A stretch of DNA of 20,440 nt, from the IMG/VR virus record IMGVR_UViG_3300021963_000812, positions 1 to 20,440 of that record; one strand, written 5' to 3'. This document shows positions 2,966 through 20,440 of the stretch, piece after piece; position 1 is the stretch's first letter; each line of letters starts with the position of its first letter. The DNA is from a virus. The notes below the pieces were generated by a model. The model was not told the DNA's origin and made no database searches. It worked only from the letters and a program-made list of their open reading frames with translations. The translations under genes and the position numbers were made by a program.

Positions 2966-3385
2966 TTAAATTTGCCAGCACCTCGCACCGTTGAGCGTCG
3001 CAAGCGGAGCGAAGATCAGTCCTGCGCGTCCTACGAAAGCGGAGCAGTGACCGAGATAAATCCCGATGGCGTTTCCGCGTCCGGTGTCCGCAACGATCAA
3101 ATCGCCACGCGAGCAACGCGTCGTTTCTACCTCGACGATGCCGCAGGATTTGCGCGCATCCAAAAGGATGCCACAAACTCCACCGAGCTTGCGCAGCAGA
3201 CGCATGGCAGACGCCGCAGAATCGTATTTGCCGCGAAGATCGGCAGCAGGGTCAACGCCAGTCACCATCTCCACCCAGTCGGCCGCAAACAGGCAGCAAT
3301 CGCTACTTCCCCAGACAAACGAAACGTCGCGCCGCTCCTCGATGTAAGCGGCAAGCAACGTCGGCCAATGATCAGCGCGCGTCAT
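2966..3385 (-). CDS. NlpC/P60-like tail tip protein (DUF6950-type)
   Basis: A 139-aa protein. Residues 24-36 read VWGSSDCCLFAAD; the Trp-Gly then Asp-Cys arrangement, with Cys30 as candidate nucleophile, is what small NlpC/P60-like phage tail proteins show. RGDLIVAD at 93-100 fits the next strand of that fold. His113 is a possible partner, but the pattern around it is weak, so peptidase activity is uncertain. Its place between the hub-like gene and the gpJ-like gene matches the lambda gpK and gene-transfer-agent order, where this protein helps local cell-wall penetration or tip assembly. The ATG overlaps the stop of the 218-aa gene (ATGA), implying translational coupling. Confidence 0.8.
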   Translation of the reverse strand: MTRADHWPTLLAAYIEERRDVSFVWGSSDCCLFAADWVEMVTGVDPAADLRGKYDSAASAMRLLRKLGGVCGILLDARKSCGIVEVETTRCSRGDLIVADTGRGNAIGIYLGHCSAFVGRAGLIFAPLATLNGARCWQI

Positions 3386-7214: not shown

Positions 7215-8011
7215 GCGGCTTCTTTAATTGGCATTGCTCCTCCGACCTTGGCGAATCCCAGATTGACTGCGCGGTTTGCCATGACTGCGGCCACCTTTCG
7301 TTCCGTCGTTTTGATCCGTGACGTTAGCACGGCATCAATTTTCGATTGGTAGTTCGGGATCTTTATATTGTAGGCGATGGCTTGAAGATATGGATTAGGA
7401 CCAAAGTTTGATCTTGAAAATCCGAACAGACCAGAGCCGCCAGCTTGCGGTTTTAGCTTGTCGGAGAACTTTTTGTAACGTGCTCCGGTCTTCTTTGCAG
7501 AAGAGTTCCAACCAGACACCGACCAACCGACACGATCTTCAATTTCTTTTCTGTATTTCTTGAAATCTGCTCCAAATGCCAGCGCGACAGCCTTGCCGGT
7601 GACACGTCCTCGAGAATTTCTGCGGCTCATGTGCTCTTGGCGGATGGCTCCTATGTTCTCCAGCAACTTCATCCCATAATATCCTTTCAGATTCGGATTC
7701 ATCAGAAGCTCGCGCATCTTCGCGATGTTTCTCGTGCGAGTATATTTCGCCATGGACTTGTAAAATCCGCCCTTCGTCGCCTTTGCTTCGAGATCCGAAT
7801 ATACAAGCGGCTGTGCCAGCTTTGAAAGGTCGCCTCGAACTGCGTTGACGCCTTGCTGCTTTGATTTCGGAGGAGTAAATTTGATCAGCGTCTGGAGTAT
7901 GTATTTTGCCTCCTCCTTGATCACGAGTCCGAGATCAACCTTGGCCGCGTTGGCAAGTTTAGCCAACGCCATCTCGAGTTTCGCAGTGTCCGCTTTGATC
8001 GAAAAGCTCAT
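7211..8011 (-). CDS. HK97 gp10-like neck / tail completion protein
   Basis: A 266-aa, strongly basic protein. The start (SFSIKADTAKLEMALAKLAN) is like HK97 gp10-type proteins, which begin with a short strand and a helix and sit between connector and tail terminator. The middle is unusually rich in Lys, Arg and Gly, and at 266 residues it is longer than typical gp10 proteins (about 110-170), so the central 100 residues look like an insertion. The gene lies in the expected place, directly before the gpU-like gene. It overlaps the stop of the 106-aa gene (ATGAG). The role in neck or tail completion is inferred from order and N-terminal style. Its DNA is visibly more A/T-rich than most neighbours. 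Confidence 0.68.
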   Translation of the reverse strand: MSFSIKADTAKLEMALAKLANAAKVDLGLVIKEEAKYILQTLIKFTPPKSKQQGVNAVRGDLSKLAQPLVYSDLEAKATKGGFYKSMAKYTRTRNIAKMRELLMNPNLKGYYGMKLLENIGAIRQEHMSRRNSRGRVTGKAVALAFGADFKKYRKEIEDRVGWSVSGWNSSAKKTGARYKKFSDKLKPQAGGSGLFGFSRSNFGPNPYLQAIAYNIKIPNYQSKIDAVLTSRIKTTERKVAAVMANRAVNLGFAKVGGAMPIKEAA

Positions 8012-8328
8012 ATCTGTTTGCAGACGTCGATTTCGACTCCGGTTCCTTCTGCATCGAATCGAAGTTGCTCAACGAAGTAGGTCACGCCAGAGCGCACGAG
8101 CGTCTGAGTTTGAGCCGGCGTCGTTCCGACCTGATTCGTGGTCAGGAAGATCGTGAACTTGGATTCGTCGCGGCGCTGATTCTCAAACTCGTCGAACGCA
8201 TTCCGCGACGAAGACCAGATGCCTGTGACCGTGCTGCCAAGATAGCTAAACGTGACGCCGGCCTGCGCCATGATGCCGTCGTAATCGGCTTGGAGTTGGG
8301 TCGAATCAAAGTCTCGGACGGCGGCCAT
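8008..8328 (-). CDS. Putative head-tail connector / neck protein
   Basis: A 106-aa protein, beta-rich at its C-terminus, with no membrane segment. It contains a central segment RRDESKFTIFLTTNQVG (about 52-68) and ends FDAEGTGVEIDV, which reads like a small barrel-type head-completion or stopper protein. The position just before the gp10-like gene is where siphoviruses place these. It starts 16 bases after the stop of the GT9-like gene and lacks a Shine-Dalgarno. No specific family is recognised with certainty. Confidence 0.65.
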   Translation of the reverse strand: MAAVRDFDSTQLQADYDGIMAQAGVTFSYLGSTVTGIWSSSRNAFDEFENQRRDESKFTIFLTTNQVGTTPAQTQTLVRSGVTYFVEQLRFDAEGTGVEIDVCKQI

Positions 8329-8344
8329 ACTTACACGCCGAACG

Positions 8345-9046
8345 TCAAAGGATGCGCGAAGCCGGCGAAAGCGCGTCGTTCTGCGAATCGCCGCTGAGAA
8401 CGTGCCAGAACTCAGAGCGGACGGCGCCGCAGATGATCGACGGAGCGGAGTTTATGGTGAACACGCTGCGAGCGTCGCGCAGCAGACGCGGCAGATGCGA
8501 CGACCGGCGCGCAGTCAGGATCGAATCCTTGGCGATTCCAGCCCTTCCGAGCGCCGCGGCATGGCTAGGGTCTGCCAGCGTCACGAAAGGCCCGCATATT
8601 CGATCCATTGCCTGTTCCTCGAGAGTCTCGAGCGAGTAGCGATTGCGCTGCGAGTAGCCGAACGGCGAGAAGATGCCCACGTCAGGAGTCAGATAGTAGT
8701 CGGCGAGGCTTGGCATCTGATCGATCAGGTCGAAGACAGGCTTGCGGTCGATGCCAGCGAGCAACGAATTTCGGCCATAGACAAACTCGAGCCACGTCTG
8801 ACCAGATTCGACGAACTCGTTGAAACGATTCGGCCAGATTTCGAGATCCAGAAGCATTCCAAAGTCGTGATCCGCGCGCTGACTCAGCAGCGATGGCCGG
8901 CAGTAGCTGACGCAGTCGAAGAACTCGTGATACTGCTCGAGGCACTCGACAAAAACCTCGTCGCCGTCAGCCGCGAAGTGCCGCGCGATTGGCAGGATTC
9001 GGATAATGTCGCCGAGCCGCTGCGAATAGGCGATGCAGATTTTCAT
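8345..9046 (-). CDS. GT9-like (heptosyltransferase-fold) glycosyltransferase
   Basis: A 233-aa protein. The N-terminal MKICIAYSQRLGDIIRILPI (residues 1-20), with Gly12-Asp13, is the opening loop of family 9 glycosyltransferases. Residues 195-213 (VFTINSAPSIICGAVRSEF) resemble the GT9 nucleotide-sugar region 'D-S-G-P-x-H-x-A-A-x-x-x'; here the Asp is Asn and the His is Ile, so catalysis is doubtful. At 233 residues it is shorter than typical GT9 enzymes (about 320-350). It overlaps the methyltransferase stop (ATGA), so the two are probably translated together. It may be a reduced or specialised member, a binding protein for sugar, or another Rossmann-type enzyme. Placement beside a glycosyltransferase and methyltransferase supports a sugar role. 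Confidence 0.6.
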   Translation of the reverse strand: MKICIAYSQRLGDIIRILPIARHFAADGDEVFVECLEQYHEFFDCVSYCRPSLLSQRADHDFGMLLDLEIWPNRFNEFVESGQTWLEFVYGRNSLLAGIDRKPVFDLIDQMPSLADYYLTPDVGIFSPFGYSQRNRYSLETLEEQAMDRICGPFVTLADPSHAAALGRAGIAKDSILTARRSSHLPRLLRDARSVFTINSAPSIICGAVRSEFWHVLSGDSQNDALSPASRIL

Positions 9047-9666
9047 CGTGAGAAGATCATCGTCAAAATGTTCTGCATCTTGCTGTCGCTTTTGCGGATC
9101 TTGTCTTCTGGATTGCCGCAGTAAATTTTCCGCATTCCTTGCCTTTCAAAAACGCGAGCGAGCGAATCAGAATTGAAGTGCCAAAGGTGTTCTCCCGGTC
9201 GGCGATGCTTCCACGAGGTAAACCATTTATCTCCGAGGATGTAATGATACCAAGGCACCGAGACGACCACGCACTTCGCGTTTACCTTTGGCAGTTTTGC
9301 GAAGTGCTCGAGCGAGTCGAAGAACGTCACTACGTCCCACGCTCCTTCCTGCCAGTCTGGATCAACGGTCACAAAGTCAGGCGCCGGATAGGGCGACACG
9401 TCGAAACCGTAAAGCGTTGCAGTCGGCTTTGCTCGGCCGATCTCTGCCAGAAACGCACCGGTGCCAAATCCCACGTCGCAGATCGTCGCAAAGTCGCCTG
9501 CGTGCTGCATCACTAGCTTCGCGCGAATCGCAGACAGTTCTGCCTGCGGGTAATTCTCATAGCGTGCGACATAGGCGTGATCATAACGCGCCGTGATCTT
9601 GCGGCTGACCGATTTGAGCGCGCCGATTTCTTTGCAGAATTTATATCCGACCGGAGGTTTGGTCAT
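9043..9666 (-). CDS. Class I SAM-dependent methyltransferase
   Basis: A 207-aa protein with the Rossmann methyltransferase signatures in order: motif I ICDVGFGTGAFL at residues 62-73 (Gly66, Gly68, Gly70), acidic post-I residue Asp89 in YGFD, and WDVVTFFDSLEHF at 110-122 as motif IV-like strand and helix. RRPGEHLWHFN at 155-165 is typical of small-molecule or sugar methyltransferases found in glycan clusters. The start overlaps the glycosyltransferase stop by ATGA, and its own stop overlaps the GT9-like start. I infer methylation of a sugar transferred by the neighbouring enzymes. A nucleic-acid target is less likely, because no DPPY-type motif is seen. Confidence 0.85.
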   Translation of the reverse strand: MTKPPVGYKFCKEIGALKSVSRKITARYDHAYVARYENYPQAELSAIRAKLVMQHAGDFATICDVGFGTGAFLAEIGRAKPTATLYGFDVSPYPAPDFVTVDPDWQEGAWDVVTFFDSLEHFAKLPKVNAKCVVVSVPWYHYILGDKWFTSWKHRRPGEHLWHFNSDSLARVFERQGMRKIYCGNPEDKIRKSDSKMQNILTMIFSR

Positions 9667-11360
9667 GATGGATTTCGCAGCTCGAACAGTTCCTTGCCAG
9701 CCTTGTATCGCTCCGGCGAGTTATTGTGATCATACGTTTTGTCATTCGGAGCGCGTCCGAATATTGGATGCAAATGTTCAAACGTGATGCGGTCTCGTGC
9801 GTCAATGACCACGCCGTCCTTCCACGCTCGCGCGCTGAACTCGTTGTCCGAAAAAACCGATTCGTAGCCTTCGTGAAATAGTTCTTTGCCCTGCTGCTCG
9901 TATCGAGCGCGCGAGCAAATTGCCATGCAAAGCAAAGTGTCTGTGCGATTGCCGTCATTTACCGCGATCACGAACGAATCAAATGCCGGATCTTTATCTT
10001 TGACCTCGGCCAGCAATTTCTCATCCCAACCGAGAGACGGCACCCAGTCGTCCGAGAGCTGAACCAAGATGTCTCCGGTCGCCTGCCTTGCCGCGCGATT
10101 CCATGCAGCGACGCACGACTTTTTGTCAGAGACTACGCTGAGAAAATAATCAGCCATCTCCATCGAATCCTTGTCGTCCGAATCGACCGCTAAGATGTGT
10201 TCAATCTGCGACGCATTGGTGGCCGATGTGAGCCAAGCGTCACGGCAAGCGACGGCCTGAGACGAACGATGCCGCGTCGCATGGAGCAACGAGATGCGCG
10301 GAGTCTTGCCGGCGTAATACTGCGATTGCAGAAATGTTGCGCGTGCCAAGTTCCCGTGCGCGCGAAACGCACGCGCTGCCAGATCGTATCCTGCCCAAGT
10401 ATACCACTTCACCTCGTGCGTCCACGGTCGGTCAGCCTCGAGCGGTTCGCGAAGCTCTAGCATTTTGTCTGCCCAATAACTTGCGCGCTGCGTGTCGTTC
10501 TTTTCAAAATACAAAAGAATCAGATGGGCAATCGCCTCGCGGCACCACGGATAAATTGCGTGCGCTTCCATCAGGTAGGTGAGCGCCTCGCGGTGACTAT
10601 TGCAGAGCTTCGCCAAGTTGATGAGCGTCTCGTAACGAAAAGCCGGTTGCAGATTAGGAAACGAAATTGCGATCTTTCCGAACGAGATTGCAGCGTTGGT
10701 ATTGACCGAGCAGTAATGCTCTTGGTGAATGTAGAAATACTGCGCGGCGACCTCGCGCACCGAGTGAGCAAGGATTCGCAGATTCCGCCGGCGGTTCTCG
10801 CGTTTAACGATTGCCGGCGAATGAATCCAGACCGGCGCCTGCCAGTCCTCGTGCTTGTCCTTTGGCAGAAGGAGCAGGTTTTCATGAACCTCGTGATGCC
10901 AGATGCGCCGGTCGTGGAACGCGTGCCTGCGGATTGCGCGCTCGCGATACAGTCGCTTGCCGCTGCCTCGCACGTCGTAGTAAGCACGCACCATCAGCAC
11001 CTCGGCCGGCAGTAGCGCGAGCTTCTCGCGGAATCCTTCGACCTTCTCGATTAAATCGTCGCAGTCAGCCCAAACCAGCCAGTCTCCGGTTGCCTGCGCG
11101 AATGCCTTGTTCCGTGCCGCTGCAAACGAATCGACGTGGTCCCAAGCCTCGGCGCCCAACTGGTTCTTGTGCTCGCTAAAAACGAACGGAATGCCCTTCT
11201 CCGCGCACCAGTCACGCGCCATCTGTTCAGTCTCGTCCGGCTTCTTGATGCCGATGGCACGCACCAACGAAAGCTCGTCGAAGATTGGTGCGAACGAGTT
11301 CAGCATCGAAAGGATGTGCTCGATCTCGTTTCCGCAGATTACGCACAGAGAAATTCGCAT
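9663..11360 (-). CDS. Two-domain GT2-type glycosyltransferase with helical linker
   Basis: I chose the ATG at 11360, giving 565 residues (MRISLCVICGNEIEHILSML). The longer open frame reaches back through the terminator into the capsid gene and is not credible. Residues 1-230 form a GT-A domain: ISLCVICGNE at the N-terminus and GDWLVWADCDD at 92-102 with the metal-binding Asp99-x-Asp101. Residues about 240-345 are paired helices of TPR style. Residues 354-530 form a second GT-A-like domain beginning RISLLHATRHR, with QATGDILVQLSDDWVPSLGW at 426-445 (Asp437-Asp438). Two transferase modules in one chain could add two sugars in sequence. It lies 18 bases after the terminator T-run behind the capsid gene. 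No Shine-Dalgarno is visible. The acceptor is unknown; virion protein is one possibility. Confidence 0.87.
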   Translation of the reverse strand: MRISLCVICGNEIEHILSMLNSFAPIFDELSLVRAIGIKKPDETEQMARDWCAEKGIPFVFSEHKNQLGAEAWDHVDSFAAARNKAFAQATGDWLVWADCDDLIEKVEGFREKLALLPAEVLMVRAYYDVRGSGKRLYRERAIRRHAFHDRRIWHHEVHENLLLLPKDKHEDWQAPVWIHSPAIVKRENRRRNLRILAHSVREVAAQYFYIHQEHYCSVNTNAAISFGKIAISFPNLQPAFRYETLINLAKLCNSHREALTYLMEAHAIYPWCREAIAHLILLYFEKNDTQRASYWADKMLELREPLEADRPWTHEVKWYTWAGYDLAARAFRAHGNLARATFLQSQYYAGKTPRISLLHATRHRSSQAVACRDAWLTSATNASQIEHILAVDSDDKDSMEMADYFLSVVSDKKSCVAAWNRAARQATGDILVQLSDDWVPSLGWDEKLLAEVKDKDPAFDSFVIAVNDGNRTDTLLCMAICSRARYEQQGKELFHEGYESVFSDNEFSARAWKDGVVIDARDRITFEHLHPIFGRAPNDKTYDHNNSPERYKAGKELFELRNPS

Positions 11361-11378: not shown

Positions 11379-11414
11379 AAAAACAAGAAACCCTGCGCCG
11401 GTAAAAGCGCAGGG
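11379..11414 (-). terminator. Intrinsic terminator after the major capsid gene
   Basis: On the minus strand CCCTGCGC (11414-11407) pairs perfectly with GCGCAGGG (11398-11391) around an eight-base loop, and is followed by TTTCTTGTTTTT down to 11379. An 8-bp GC-rich stem with a T-rich tail is a standard Rho-independent terminator. It lies 23 bases past the capsid stop codon and ends 18 bases before the glycosyltransferase ATG. Confidence 0.85.
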
Positions 11415-11437
11415 TTCTCGAAGCGAACCAGATTGCT

Positions 11438-12406
11438 TTAGCTGTATTGCGTGGTGATCAACTGAGCCGCGTTCGAATTGACAACCTTCTCGGCGACGTA
11501 ATGCGAAGATCGCACGACGTTCGACCGGATCGTCTCGTCGCGGTAGGTCGTCACGCCGATGACCGGACCATACTCGGACCAGTTGAGCGTGAAGCCAGCA
11601 CCGCCGCCGAAGTAGCCGGCGCCGCCATCGGAGACCGAGCCGACCCAAGCCAGCGTGTTGCTCCAGATATTGGAGCTAGAGAATGCAACACCTTCGTTGG
11701 CGCTGTCGTAGGACGATCGACCGATCAGCACTTCCTGCACGCCCAGCGCCTCGGCAGCAGCCGCGAGACCGACGTTCAGGAACGTGTCGGACGAAACACC
11801 AGCACCGCGCAGGCGGTTCTGAAACTTCGTCGAAGCCTTGATGCGATTGTAAACAGGACTCGAAAGGACAACTCTGAGATTGTCGATCGACTCGCCCTTC
11901 GCGAGCAGACGATCTTTGCAGTCATCAACGTCAGCACCGAAATCGAACGTCGCCAGATTCGCGGCCGTGTAAGCGGTCGCAGAATTGGTCGCGGTGAAGA
12001 CGGTATTGTCGAAGATTTTCGCAGCGACGCGAAGCTCGTGCGAGAGCATCAGCGAACGCTGAGAGAGCTTGCCGGCGATGACTTCAGCGTCGAAGAACCG
12101 CGCCATGTCAGCGGTCACAACGTCATCGATGGTATTCTCGATGCCGTATTCAATCGCGGTGTAGGTGTCCTGAGTGAACGACTGCGTCGCGCGAGGATAC
12201 GCACCACCGACAGCGCGCTGCTTGGCGCTCTGCTTGAGAAGTTGCGCTTCCTTGAGGAGAAAGGTCGGATACTGCCCAGCGCGCACTGGCACGTTGAGCA
12301 CTGGCATGACCTTGGTTCCGATGAGTCCGTTCTCCCAGTCTTTCGACTGTTCGAGGACACCGGCGATATCGCCACGGAATACCGCGGCTGCATTTGAGTA
12401 AGCCAT
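11438..12406 (-). CDS. Major capsid protein
   Basis: A 322-aa protein starting MAYSNAAAVFRGDIAGVLEQ. Its size, location directly after protease/scaffold and decoration genes, and sequence style support a HK97-fold capsid subunit. There is a helical region around residues 85-135 with IEYGIENTIDDVVTADMARF and then LSHELRVAAKIFDNTVF, which looks like the spine helix. A conserved-type segment RVVLSSPVYNRIKAS lies near residue 175, and a beta-rich end near 285-322 includes YRDETIRSNVVRSSHYVAEK. Many copies form the head shell. It has its own terminator, consistent with high expression. The start is preceded by an A/T-rich leader without a Shine-Dalgarno. Confidence 0.9.
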   Translation of the reverse strand: MAYSNAAAVFRGDIAGVLEQSKDWENGLIGTKVMPVLNVPVRAGQYPTFLLKEAQLLKQSAKQRAVGGAYPRATQSFTQDTYTAIEYGIENTIDDVVTADMARFFDAEVIAGKLSQRSLMLSHELRVAAKIFDNTVFTATNSATAYTAANLATFDFGADVDDCKDRLLAKGESIDNLRVVLSSPVYNRIKASTKFQNRLRGAGVSSDTFLNVGLAAAAEALGVQEVLIGRSSYDSANEGVAFSSSNIWSNTLAWVGSVSDGGAGYFGGGAGFTLNWSEYGPVIGVTTYRDETIRSNVVRSSHYVAEKVVNSNAAQLITTQYS

Positions 12407-14693: not shown

Positions 14694-14923
14694 GACTTGT
14701 TTATCGTCGCGGTCGATGTCGGCTTGTCTATTGCCAGCACGCCGTTGCAACTGACGTTCCATTCGTTGCCGGTGCGCTCACTGGTGCATGGGACGTTGAT
14801 CGAAAAGTGCTTGAACAGGTATTCCTTTTGCGCCTTTTCGCCCTCAAATATACGCCAGACATGGTCAAGTGTCCCGCGACCGGGTTCGCCTCGGCTCTTG
14901 TTGAATCGAATGATGTATTTCAT
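14690..14923 (-). CDS. Small phage protein, function unknown
   Basis: A 77-aa protein starting MKYIIRFNKSRGEPGRGTLD. It overlaps the oxygenase stop (ATGA) at its start and the holin-like start at its end, so it is embedded in a translationally coupled series. DHVWRIFEG near residues 20-28 and a beta-like C-terminal half with two Cys residues (Cys46, Cys59) are the only notable traits. There is no membrane segment. I do not recognise the family. Confidence 0.75.
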   Translation of the reverse strand: MKYIIRFNKSRGEPGRGTLDHVWRIFEGEKAQKEYLFKHFSINVPCTSERTGNEWNVSCNGVLAIDKPTSTATINKS

Positions 14924-15594
14924 ACGACCTCAACCGGAGTTGAACACGTCTTTGCTAGATTGTATCCGACGCTCAAATTGAAATGCACGAACTTGATCGG
15001 CTTGTCCGAACCATGTCGGCCGAATGAATGCGGCAACCACGCATTTGTGATGAGCATGAGTCCCGGCTCTGGCACAAAGTTGATAGCATTACTCGCCGGA
15101 GTTGCTATGCTCATGTCTTGCTCCGGCAGATTGATCTGCACCTTGCCGCATCGCGGGTCGTGAAACATGGCCCGCGAACAGCCCTCTGGTGTCTCTAGGA
15201 AATAGAACCCGACCAGTTGATGGCCACCGCCGTGGACGTGCCGTTCCATGAACGAATGCTTGTGGTGCTTCTGTGTCCACATTGCGTCAAGGGTGACGTT
15301 GAAGTTATCCATCGCGTAACCTTGGCTCTGCAATATTCCCCAAGCGTTGTGGCCGACGTAGCTGCAAAAATCCTTTACACGCGAGTCACCAGCGAAACTT
15401 TCAGTCTGATGCAGCGGGTATAGCTCATGCACATCGTTACCGATCTTGCTCAGTAATTCATCGGAGACTTCGCTCACGGATGCGATGAACTCCGGCTTCT
15501 TGCTGGAATAAATCGCAGACGGGAAGTAATTGAACGTAAAAAACTCCGGCTGCTTTACCGGCTCCTCCACCTTTGCTTTGCGTTTCTTAAACAT
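14920..15594 (-). CDS. Putative 2OG-Fe(II) oxygenase
   Basis: A 224-aa protein. Residues 115-133 (FMERHVHGGGHQLVGFYFL) match the core of small phage 2-oxoglutarate/Fe(II) dioxygenases (2OG-FeII_Oxy_5 style): a His-x-His or His-x-x motif, a Gly-rich turn and a strand ending in aromatic residues. FHDPR at 144-148 and LPHSFGRH at 187-194 followed by KFVHFNLSV at 201-209 give the second conserved His (His189) and the closing 'F-N' strand of the double-stranded beta helix. Iron ligands are probably His119 or His121 and His189; the acidic ligand is not obvious, so catalysis is less certain. By family it would hydroxylate a protein, nucleotide or small molecule. It overlaps the upstream gene by eight bases and lies next to the adhesin genes. 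Confidence 0.75.
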   Translation of the reverse strand: MFKKRKAKVEEPVKQPEFFTFNYFPSAIYSSKKPEFIASVSEVSDELLSKIGNDVHELYPLHQTESFAGDSRVKDFCSYVGHNAWGILQSQGYAMDNFNVTLDAMWTQKHHKHSFMERHVHGGGHQLVGFYFLETPEGCSRAMFHDPRCGKVQINLPEQDMSIATPASNAINFVPEPGLMLITNAWLPHSFGRHGSDKPIKFVHFNLSVGYNLAKTCSTPVEVV

Positions 15595-17932: not shown

Positions 17933-20440
17933 TTAAAATCCTCCAAAGTTATTTGCTAAGAAAATGTTGCTGCCTGTTGAGGCTGAACTTGAGCCAGCAG
18001 CAATCGTGATTGCTCCGCTTCCGTTGGTAATTGTTATGCCAGAGCCAGCCGTCAAAGTTGCTTTTGTCAGTGTATTTCCGGTCGTGTTGCCGATGAGCAA
18101 CTGGCCATCGGTGTATGTCGTCTGACCTGTTCCGCCCTTCGCCACCGTAACTGTATCACTCAGAGTCGACCCAGCCGCCGTGACGGTGATCGCTGCACTC
18201 CCGTCAAAATTGACGCCATTGATCGCGCGAGGAGTAGCGAGAGCCGTGGCTGTCGCTGCGTTGCCCGTGGTAGAGCCAGACGAGCCGCTGGCATTGCCGG
18301 TTAAATTCGCGGTGATTGTGCCAGCGGTGAAATTACCAGAAGCATCGCGGGCAACAATTGCAGAGGCAGTGTTGGCTGACGCTGCCGTCGTCGCGCTGTT
18401 TGAGACTTTAAGAGCAGTCGCAATTGTATCGAGCTTCGTGTCGGCAATTGCGGCGGATGCATTGATGTCTGCGTTCACGATAACGCCTGCTGCGATTGCG
18501 GTGGCATTTCCGACGCTCGACACATCGCCAGTCAGATTCGCATTCGTCGTTACGTTTCCAGCCGTCAGTCCAGCAGCCGTGCCGGTAATGTTCGTGCCGA
18601 CAAGTGATGCTGGCGTGCCAAGTGCCGGACTAGCTCCAAAGGATGTCAGCGAGGATGCGGTAACACCGGAAGCAAGAGTCGCGCCGGTGAGCGTGCTAGC
18701 GTCTGCCGTGATAGTGATTGCCGCAGTCCCGTCAAAGTTAGTTCCGTTGATTGCGCGCGCCGTGGCCAATGCTGTTGCCGTCGCCGCGTTCCCGGTCGTC
18801 GAGCCAGACGAGCCGCTCGCGTTGCCGGTGAGATTCGCGGTGATCGTCCCGGCGGTGAAATTACCGGACGCGTCACGCGCAACGATTGCCGATGCCGTGT
18901 TGGCCGATGCTGCGGTCGTCGCTGAATTGCTGACCTTCAGCGCAGTCGCAATCGTGTCCAGCTTGGTATCGACGATCGCGGCACTCGCATTGATGTCCGC
19001 ATTGACGATCACTCCAGCAGCGATTGCCGTCGCATTGCCAACGCTGGTCACATCGCCAGTGAGATTCGCGTTCGTGACTACGGTTGCGGCATTGCCGACG
19101 CTAGTGACACCTCCAGTGAGATTCGCATTTGTGATCACGGTCGCAGCGTTGCCGATGCTCGTGACACCTCCGGTCAAGTTTGCGTTCGTGACGACCGTGG
19201 CAGCGTTACCGACGCTGGTCACGCTACCAGTCAGATTTGCGTTTGTCACCACCGTGGCCGCAAAGCTGCCGGTGCCGCTGCCAGTCACGCCTCCGGTGAG
19301 CGTGATCGTCTGGTCGCCGGTGTTAGCTCCAGAGACCGAGGTCGTGCCGGTGACTGCAAGCGTCGGAGTCGATGCGCCAGAGACCACGACGGAATTGACC
19401 GAGGTCGGAACGATGGCTCCGAGCGTCAGACTGATTGCCGGCGTGGTCGTCGAGGTCGCTACGGTGCCGGACACTCCGTTCGCCGTCGTCACCGAAACGC
19501 TGGTGACCGTGCCGCTTCCGCCAGCCGCGACGAACGATGTATTCGTGCCGTCGCTCTGGAGCACCTTGCCGCTTGCTCCGACCTGAGATGGAAGCAAAGC
19601 GTTGAGCGCATCGTTCGCCGTGACCTGACCCGTGCCACCCTTGGCAATCGTCACAGTGTCCGAGAGCGTGCTGCCGGCAGCTGTCACCGTGATATTCGCC
19701 GTGCCGTTGAAGCTGGTGCCGTTGATCGTTCGTGCTGTCGCTAGCGCGGTTGCGGTCGATGAGTTCCCGGTCAGCGCAGCGGTGATCGTGCCTGCGGTAA
19801 AGTTGCCAGACGCATCACGAGCGACAATCGCGGACGCAGTATTCGCAGACGCCGCAGTCGTGGCCGAGTTGGAAACCTTGGATGCGGTCGAGATCGTCGC
19901 GAGCTTCGTATCCACGATTGCCGCGCTCGCGTTGATGTCAGCGTTGACGATCACGCCCGCTGCAATCGCTGTCGCGTTCCCGGTGCTCGTGACGTCGCCG
20001 GTCAAATTCGCGTTCGTGACTACGGTCGCTGCAAAGCTGCCTGTGCCGCTTCCGGTCACTCCACCAGTCAGCGTGATGGTCTGATCGCCGGTATTCGTTC
20101 CGCTGATCGCGCTCGTGCCAGTCACTGCCAGCGCCGGCGTCGAGGAACCGGAAAGCGTCACGGCGTTGACCGTCGTCGGCGTGATTGCACCGAGCGTAAG
20201 GCTGATCGCCGGAGTGGTCGTGCTAGTCGCTACGGAACCCGAGACACCGTTTGCAGTCGTCACTGATACGGAAGTCACGGTCCCAGATCCGCCGCCTGAT
20301 GCACTAATGGTGATTGATCCCGGTGCGTTCGCGATCGTGACACCGCTGCCGGCTGTCAGCGTTGCCTTCGCGAAATCTCCGTTTGAGCCGATGAGCAACT
20401 GCCCATCGGTTGACGCTCCGACCAGATCGAGGATCGAAGT
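17933..20440 (-). CDS. Long repetitive tail fibre protein, N-terminus outside the window
   Basis: At least 835 residues are encoded; the frame is open to the right edge. A TTG at 20398 could be taken as the start, but 14 more in-frame codons precede it and encode GASTDGQLLIG, the same motif found at residues 763-770 (TDGQLLIG), so coding continues beyond the window. The chain is low in charge and rich in Ala, Thr, Gly, Val and Asn. It is built from repeat families described separately, with the motifs VTSVSVTTANGVSG, TGDQTITLTGGVTGSGTG, ARDASGNFTAGTI and GGTGQTTYTDGQLLIG known from phage long-fibre and 'beta-strand repeat' proteins. It should form an elongated trimeric shaft. The end, ANNFGGF, carries no intramolecular chaperone or peptidase domain. 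The glycine-rich protein may serve as its tip. Confidence 0.88.
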   Translation of the reverse strand, partial: TSILDLVGASTDGQLLIGSNGDFAKATLTAGSGVTIANAPGSITISASGGGSGTVTSVSVTTANGVSGSVATSTTTPAISLTLGAITPTTVNAVTLSGSSTPALAVTGTSAISGTNTGDQTITLTGGVTGSGTGSFAATVVTNANLTGDVTSTGNATAIAAGVIVNADINASAAIVDTKLATISTASKVSNSATTAASANTASAIVARDASGNFTAGTITAALTGNSSTATALATARTINGTSFNGTANITVTAAGSTLSDTVTIAKGGTGQVTANDALNALLPSQVGASGKVLQSDGTNTSFVAAGGSGTVTSVSVTTANGVSGTVATSTTTPAISLTLGAIVPTSVNSVVVSGASTPTLAVTGTTSVSGANTGDQTITLTGGVTGSGTGSFAATVVTNANLTGSVTSVGNAATVVTNANLTGGVTSIGNAATVITNANLTGGVTSVGNAATVVTNANLTGDVTSVGNATAIAAGVIVNADINASAAIVDTKLDTIATALKVSNSATTAASANTASAIVARDASGNFTAGTITANLTGNASGSSGSTTGNAATATALATARAINGTNFDGTAAITITADASTLTGATLASGVTASSLTSFGASPALGTPASLVGTNITGTAAGLTAGNVTTNANLTGDVSSVGNATAIAAGVIVNADINASAAIADTKLDTIATALKVSNSATTAASANTASAIVARDASGNFTAGTITANLTGNASGSSGSTTGNAATATALATPRAINGVNFDGSAAITVTAAGSTLSDTVTVAKGGTGQTTYTDGQLLIGNTTGNTLTKATLTAGSGITITNGSGAITIAAGSSSASTGSNIFLANNFGGF
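18293..18526 (-). repeat. Fibre repeat family B, copy 3
   Basis: A 78-residue module beginning DVSSVGNATAIAAGVIVNAD. It lies 528 bases (176 codons) from copy 2. The DNA differs at many third positions although the protein is nearly identical. Confidence 0.85.
18821..19054 (-). repeat. Fibre repeat family B, copy 2
   Basis: A 78-residue module beginning DVTSVGNATAIAAGVIVNAD. It differs from copy 3 at only two residues. The similarity to copy 3 extends on through SGSSGSTTGNAATATALAT to the NFDG segment. Confidence 0.85.
19028..19255 (-). repeat. Four tandem 57-bp units in the fibre gene
   Basis: Four consecutive 19-residue units of the pattern TVVTNANLTGxVTSVGNAA, with small changes (Val/Ile, Ser/Gly/Asp, Val/Ile). 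The four DNA copies differ at many third codon positions. Unit number is a likely point of length variation between relatives. The first unit overlaps the end of repeat A copy 2, and the last passes into repeat B copy 2. Confidence 0.85.
19229..19513 (-). repeat. Fibre repeat family A, copy 2
   Basis: Second copy of the module beginning GTVTSVSVTTANGVSG, ending at TNANLTG, where it runs directly into the 19-residue tandem array. Copy 1 instead runs into repeat family B. Confidence 0.85.
19763..19996 (-). repeat. Fibre repeat family B, copy 1
   Basis: A 78-residue module beginning DVTSTGNATAIAAGVIVNAD and ending ITAALTGN. It differs from copy 2 at five residues, mostly in the LATISTASK segment. 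Confidence 0.85.
19997..20284 (-). repeat. Fibre repeat family A, copy 1
   Basis: About 96 residues beginning GTVTSVSVTTANGVSGSVAT and running through TGDQTITLTGGVTGSGTG to TNANLTG. Copy 2 at 19229-19513 matches it at most residues, with differences concentrated in the middle (ITPTTVNAVTLSGSSTP against IVPTSVNSVVVSGASTP). It is probably one structural module of the shaft. Confidence 0.85.

Follow-up and report, generated by a model that had tools for sequence, protein, structure and literature searches.

A candidate virion glycosylation locus between the capsid and neck genes of uncultured phages

Why would a phage keep sugar-modifying genes between its major capsid gene and its neck genes, in the midst of its morphogenesis operon? 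The question is raised by a stretch of viral DNA of 20,440 bases from IMG/VR record IMGVR_UViG_3300021963_000812, referred to here at its full length as the window. At positions 8345-11360, this stretch carries three minus-strand genes—a glycosyltransferase (GT) with two GT2 domains, hereafter called the anchor; an S-adenosylmethionine (SAM)-dependent methyltransferase; and a short protein resembling GT family 9 (GT9)—with ATGA overlaps at both the anchor/methyltransferase and the methyltransferase/GT9-like junctions. A preliminary description of the sequence had given these coordinates, the strand and the overlaps exactly to the base, and had read the three genes as a single inserted cassette that builds a methylated glycan on a virion protein. 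Our analysis led to a revised picture. The anchor is a core gene of a group of phages, only the genes that follow it are exchangeable, and the locus as a whole is probably a system, integrated in the head-tail operon, that glycosylates a virion protein, with the exchangeable genes finishing the glycan.

Linkage of the anchor glycosyltransferase to the capsid gene

The anchor (565 residues; 9663..11360, minus strand, with an ATG start at 11360) has as its upstream neighbour and fixed partner the gene of the major capsid protein (322 residues; 11438..12406, minus strand), which matches PHROG 1005, major head protein, with an E-value of 6.6e-33. A search of IMG/VR with the anchor returned 252 relatives. 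To avoid the circularity of anchor-based sampling, the capsid protein was then chosen as the query; each of these IMG/VR searches gave the 80 best relatives, so that distant members may differ, and all loci are metagenomic. In the capsid-query sample, the anchor lay directly downstream of the capsid gene in 78 of the 80 best loci, both exceptions (L130 and L143) being contigs that break off 125 bases or less beyond the capsid gene. A second sample, obtained with a more distant capsid query, held the anchor in 49 of 51 new loci; one exception is again a contig end and the other, L339, shows an HNH-like insertion followed by a contig end. With the tail terminator as query, the anchor was present in all loci with enough upstream sequence (48/48). 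Since the arrangement recurs in more than 100 distinct capsid-GT pairs, it goes far beyond what chance would produce. The notion of the anchor as moron cargo was rejected, given its universality in the sample, and the single three-gene cassette of the preliminary description has to be divided into a core gene and an exchangeable slot. As for the order expected in relatives, from the capsid gene through GT, methyltransferase and GT9-like gene to the neck, the capsid-anchor linkage is near-invariant and the methyltransferase/GT9 content varies.

Further features of the junctions are conserved along with this linkage. An intrinsic-terminator-like hairpin with a 12-bp stem and a T-rich tail (11388..11417, minus strand) lies between the capsid gene and the anchor, where the preliminary description had noted an upstream terminator; a spacer hairpin of this kind was found in 107 of 109 related loci, as compared with 13 of 545 shuffled spacers. 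At the other end of the anchor, an ATGA or GTGA overlap with the next gene is kept in 110 of 119 related loci. The same spacer is occupied by an HNH-endonuclease-like gene in L065 (4296-4979) and in L339 (4183-4839)—apparently homing-type insertions into one spacer in two different phages.

Very remote homologues of the capsid protein occur in bacterial genomes, with scores of 24-31 bits that cover a portion of the sequence. No glycosyltransferase lies between the capsid and neck genes in the two such genomes read, which suggests that the ancestor of this phage group may have gained the locus by insertion.

Exchange of genes behind the anchor

The region that separates the anchor from the first neck gene (8345..9662, minus strand) behaves as an exchangeable slot, occupied in the window by the methyltransferase (207 residues, slot family F2; 9043..9666, minus strand) and the short GT9-fold protein (233 residues, slot family F1; 8345..9046, minus strand). 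Its right border is a head-tail attachment or Hc1-like neck gene (8008..8328, minus strand), which matches PF05354 with an E-value of 9.5e-4, below the curated cut-off, and PHROG 82, head closure Hc1, with 0.0093; it keeps the same place across related loci. The position of the three genes between capsid and neck is in this way borne out by Pfam and PHROG matches of the neighbours.

Among relatives, at least nine different gene contents were found in the slot, with genes called by a simple script and not individually curated. Judging by Pfam assignments, most are sugar-related or methylating enzymes. Beside the methyltransferase plus GT9 of the window, the slot may hold GT9 alone, as in L003, a near-identical relative that lacks the methyltransferase and has a capsid protein 99% identical to that of the window; methyltransferase, GT2 and GT9 (L011, L065); DUF5672 and GT9; a Methyltransf_24/TylF-like protein, GT2 and GT9; methyltransferase, a protein of no known type, GT2 and GT9 (L063); a single GT2 (F4); or a single GT2-like protein (F3). 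For F3, as for another slot family, F5, the GT2 match falls below the curated cut-off. The most divergent content, in L077 (4565-7486), combines a protein without a match, a split thiamine pyrophosphate (TPP)-dependent E1/transketolase-like enzyme and a zinc alcohol dehydrogenase, and looks like a phage-made route to an unusual sugar or polyol.

One slot content is coupled to the anchor itself. Wherever F3 is present, the anchor is short (459-506 residues, in 70 of 70 loci) and the SDDW region is missing from its second GT2 domain; where F3 is absent, the anchor measures 563-577 residues and the SDDW motif is in place. Because the separate GT2-like protein always accompanies such a shortened anchor, in which the second GT2 domain has degenerated, a second transferase appears to be kept. 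No homology between F3 and the lost domain was detected; at most, then, F3 replaces that domain in function, and this is what the pattern looks like.

Exchange of the slot contents appears to be slow. When the nine slot states are placed on a tree of 61 capsid sequences, a minimum of nine changes is required; the F3, F4, F6 and F7 types each form one group, while the methyltransferase plus GT9 type is split by others. The contents are consequently mostly stable within lineages. The preliminary description had also raised the prospect of the same genes lying in unrelated places in relatives, and nothing of the kind was seen: among the 80 best matches of a further search, the GT9-like family did not occur outside the slot. 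Of the 67 new loci that this search yielded, 55 have both borders, 10 are truncated upstream and 2 have a neck gene that has diverged or escaped detection. A weak GT2-like frame (18.7 bits) in the L283 record (G308; 25680-26027), apparently outside the slot, was the only one noticed in 12 longer records.

Predicted enzymes and their probable target

The sequence and predicted fold of the anchor indicate what kind of enzyme it may be. It matches the Pfam family Glycos_transf_2 (PF00535) over two stretches, with an E-value of 4.9e-15 and 56.3 bits (curated cut-off 23.3), and its halves match two different PHROG glycosyltransferase families. The AlphaFold2 (AF2) model, with a predicted local distance difference test (pLDDT) score of 87.8 and a predicted template modelling (pTM) score of 0.68, shows two GT2 domains (about residues 1-180 and about 356-565) with a helical region (186-348) between them. 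The helices resemble tetratricopeptide repeats (TPRs); no TPR model matched the anchor in the Pfam scan. In a Foldseek search, the top PDB matches were SunS (7msn/7msp, E-values from 8e-14 to 3e-11) and ThuS (7msk, 2e-11), at a low sequence identity of 15-20%, and a profile built from 24 anchors matched the GT domain of GmaR over residues 3-203 with an E-value of 3.1e-9. In the first GT2 domain, D99-C-D-D102 and H159-E160 are invariant in 24 diverse anchor sequences. A profile score above the curated cut-off and an acidic catalytic motif place the protein in GT family 2, and its order of domains—GT2 followed by TPR-like helices—together with the fold match to SunS and the profile match to GmaR, makes a GmaR/SunS-type polypeptide glycosyltransferase the best reading.

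The invariant motifs also bear on a very different role for the anchor, namely that of an assembly factor or scaffold of the head-tail joint in which catalysis is secondary, with the slot as a tolerated site for unrelated morons. A near-universal place beside the capsid gene would indeed be unusual for a decorating enzyme, and the slot has repeatedly changed its contents. Against it stand the invariance of these catalytic-type motifs in such diverse sequences and the make-up of the slot, where most genes encode enzymes that modify sugars or methylate, not random morons; we regard this role as very improbable.

The two slot proteins of the window fit a glycan-building function. The methyltransferase matches PF13489 (Methyltransf_23) with an E-value of 1.2e-13 and PHROG 6564 with 5.9e-14, which, along with the matches of the anchor, agrees with the identities first assigned to these two genes. 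The third protein had been labelled GT9-like, and the label holds by fold: no Pfam or PHROG match was obtained at an E-value of 0.1, and the AF2 model (pLDDT 92.5, pTM 0.91) found 3tov (3.3e-7), WaaC, WaaF and TibC as its leading glycosyltransferase matches in Foldseek. GT family 9 is its closest fold, and because it matches no Pfam or PHROG family, we call it GT9-like by fold and not a GT9 member by sequence. An N-terminal G12-D13 motif is invariant in 17 relatives, at what we take to be the position of WaaC's catalytic Asp.

These same folds might serve a target outside the particle. Acting late in infection on the lipopolysaccharide (LPS) core or O antigen, the enzymes could modify the host surface and so exclude competitors or stop progeny from sticking to debris. 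GT9-fold enzymes include the LPS heptosyltransferases WaaC and WaaF, the variety of slot contents might follow differences between host surfaces, and phage glycosyltransferases can alter host serotype (review cited in PMC12619734). Against this, the anchor is closest to polypeptide and not to lipid-linked glycosyltransferases, and expression from a structural operon would come too late for most exclusion functions. No clear transmembrane helix was seen in the anchor or slot families, the maximum mean hydropathy being 1.96 over 19 residues. Marker families were searched in 12 related records of 33-48 kb, possibly incomplete, and neither the GtrA flippase nor a tyrosine integrase was present there, serine integrases not being tested. 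The lack of GtrA, of a tyrosine integrase and of obvious transmembrane helices disfavours a serotype-conversion (gtr) cluster, and we consider modification of the host surface unlikely.

The same records speak to another target, hypermodified bases of the phage DNA, whose glycosylation would block restriction. Virus-encoded DNA-hypermodifying glycosyltransferases do exist (Pyle 2024, cited in PMC12619734). However, PF00303, the thymidylate synthase-type family that includes the dCMP and dUMP hydroxymethylases, was found in none of the 12 possibly incomplete records, as opposed to 9 of 14 control genomes. Without such a base-hydroxymethylating enzyme, DNA glycosylation is disfavoured; the anchor, moreover, sits in a structural operon and shares its GT-TPR architecture with GmaR. 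This target seems to us extremely unlikely.

Glycosylation of an abundant virion protein is, by comparison, the best explanation of an anchor of the polypeptide-glycosylating type, its linkage to the capsid gene, the terminator and the swappable sugar enzymes taken together. Predicted protein-type GT genes are placed with the structural genes by order, by overlaps and by fixed linkage, and it is probable that the phages of this group cover their own virions with sugars that differ from lineage to lineage. From gene order, linkage, slot exchange, folds and conserved motifs, we infer an acceptor, sugars, an order of steps and a benefit as follows. The conserved terminator after the capsid gene would pass only some of the transcripts on to the anchor. 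The soluble anchor would then move a first sugar from a nucleotide-sugar donor directly to side chains of a structural protein that the phage makes in the same cell; its TPR-like region would hold the acceptor protein and its second GT2 domain would add a further sugar. The slot enzymes would complete the glycan—in the window, the GT9-fold enzyme might add a sugar and the methyltransferase cap or tailor it. Exchange of the slot between lineages would alter the glycan type of the particle, leaving anchor and target constant.

Several observations weigh against this proposal. In a mirror-tree comparison of the anchor with each virion protein, all genes correlate (0.77-0.91 over all loci), so that no acceptor is singled out; the position among structural genes could stem from common late expression and not from a common target; and a host protein or host surface glycan stands as an alternative acceptor. 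SunS and ThuS make S-links to Cys, and the window's capsid protein has one cysteine and its cement protein none, which makes a SunS-like S-link to the head surface unlikely; the linkage would have to be O-linked, as we would expect, or the acceptor another protein. The capsid protein also had no match among 50,697 phage records, leaving the group without a known isolate. A methylated glycan on a virion protein, as first proposed, is thus the best-supported reading given the capsid linkage and the similarity of the anchor to polypeptide glycosyltransferases, with methylation as a trait of this lineage; capsid and tube are candidates for the modified protein, and the location of the genes alone does not single out the capsid.

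Two other genes of the window touch on virion modification. A Thr/Ser-rich repetitive protein (17933-20398, minus strand; 164 Thr and 95 Ser among 821 residues), whose gene contains a 57-base tandem repeat at 19035-19258, probably forms a tail fibre or an appendage and might be an alternative acceptor of the glycan. A putative 2-oxoglutarate (2OG)-Fe(II) oxygenase (14920-15594, minus strand; PF13759, E-value 8e-9) adjoins tail-fibre-type genes and, among the neighbourhoods compared, was seen only in the window's own virus records; a side chain hydroxylated by it could constitute a further virion modification.

Genomic setting, known counterparts and significance

The structural genes of the window are all on the minus strand. 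Along it, tail-fibre-like genes, a possible protease or scaffold gene (our reading, without a family match) and a cement-like protein precede the major capsid protein; then come the terminator-like hairpin, the anchor, the methyltransferase and the GT9-like gene, and after these the head-tail attachment-like gene, a further neck gene, the tail terminator, the tail tube, a probable tape measure and the tail tip genes. Within the tail-tip operon, a DUF6950 protein (2966-3385, minus strand; E-value 1e-33) with weak NlpC/P60 similarity is likely a tail peptidoglycan hydrolase. No cultured relatives were found for the capsid or the GT9-like protein. Only a weak GT domain match (26%) was obtained, in Streptomyces phage Daubenski, whose GT gene pair lies about 8 kb from the portal gene, among non-structural genes. 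A phage contig (L159) that equals L070 in length (27,992 bases) and content is binned in a Betaproteobacteria metagenome-assembled genome (VGHX01000030.1) and points weakly to the host of this phage group.

Among known systems, the closest is virion glycosylation in mycobacteriophages (Che8 and relatives), in which phage-encoded enzymes put glycans on capsid and tail tube and, in cluster O, tandem GT genes lie beside an O-methyltransferase (Freeman et al. 2023, as described in PMC12619734, PMC11600133 and PMC11256854). Both systems thus feature phage-encoded GTs and combine GT with methyltransferase genes. The phages studied here nevertheless belong to a different lineage, their anchor and capsid protein show no detectable similarity to the mycobacteriophages, and their glycosylation is a prediction; they have the GT2-TPR-GT2 anchor and the slot design, and their locus has a fixed place between the capsid gene and the neck genes, whereas in Maravista the GT genes are reported to lie near the 3' end of the genome (PMC11256854). 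No description of a core GT with an exchangeable slot was found in the open-access literature searched.

For the single enzymes, counterparts come from bacteria. GmaR of Listeria transfers O-linked N-acetylglucosamine (O-GlcNAc) onto flagellin and carries TPRs behind its GT domain (PMC9638930); like the anchor, it has an N-terminal GT2 domain followed by a TPR region, but linker and antirepressor domains stand where the anchor has its second GT2 domain. SunS and ThuS, the best fold matches, attach sugar to peptides (PMC6405829) and so act directly on polypeptide, yet their S-link is made to a Cys of a small bacteriocin precursor (glycocins); no such precursor was identified at the locus, though no search was aimed at one. 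The third protein shares with GT family 9 (WaaC, WaaF and TibC, the last a protein heptosyltransferase acting on TibA; PMC4358343) its fold and a conserved N-terminal GD motif, but is about 100 residues shorter than GT9 members and has no family match at sequence level.

What appears new, then, is the phage lineage, the fixed capsid-side position, the GT2-TPR-GT2 anchor and the anchor-plus-slot design, set beside a likely resemblance in function to the mycobacteriophage systems. Most of what is known of phage virion glycosylation comes from actinobacteriophages, in which it changes immune recognition. The present prediction concerns a form locked to the capsid gene, in environmental phages without a cultured member in the phage collection searched, and a design that would keep the acceptor side fixed and leave the tailoring genes open to exchange. 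We tentatively go one step further, to an idea that may well prove wrong: the polypeptide glycosyltransferase could be a core, perhaps essential, morphogenesis gene of widespread uncultured phages, and the slot a glycan-type locus by which lineages differ in their sugar coat. If so, different sugar coats would be carried on similar virions, in a manner comparable to bacterial serotype loci; and because close relatives differ in the slot and share capsid and anchor, these phages would offer a clear handle on the role of a sugar coat in nature.

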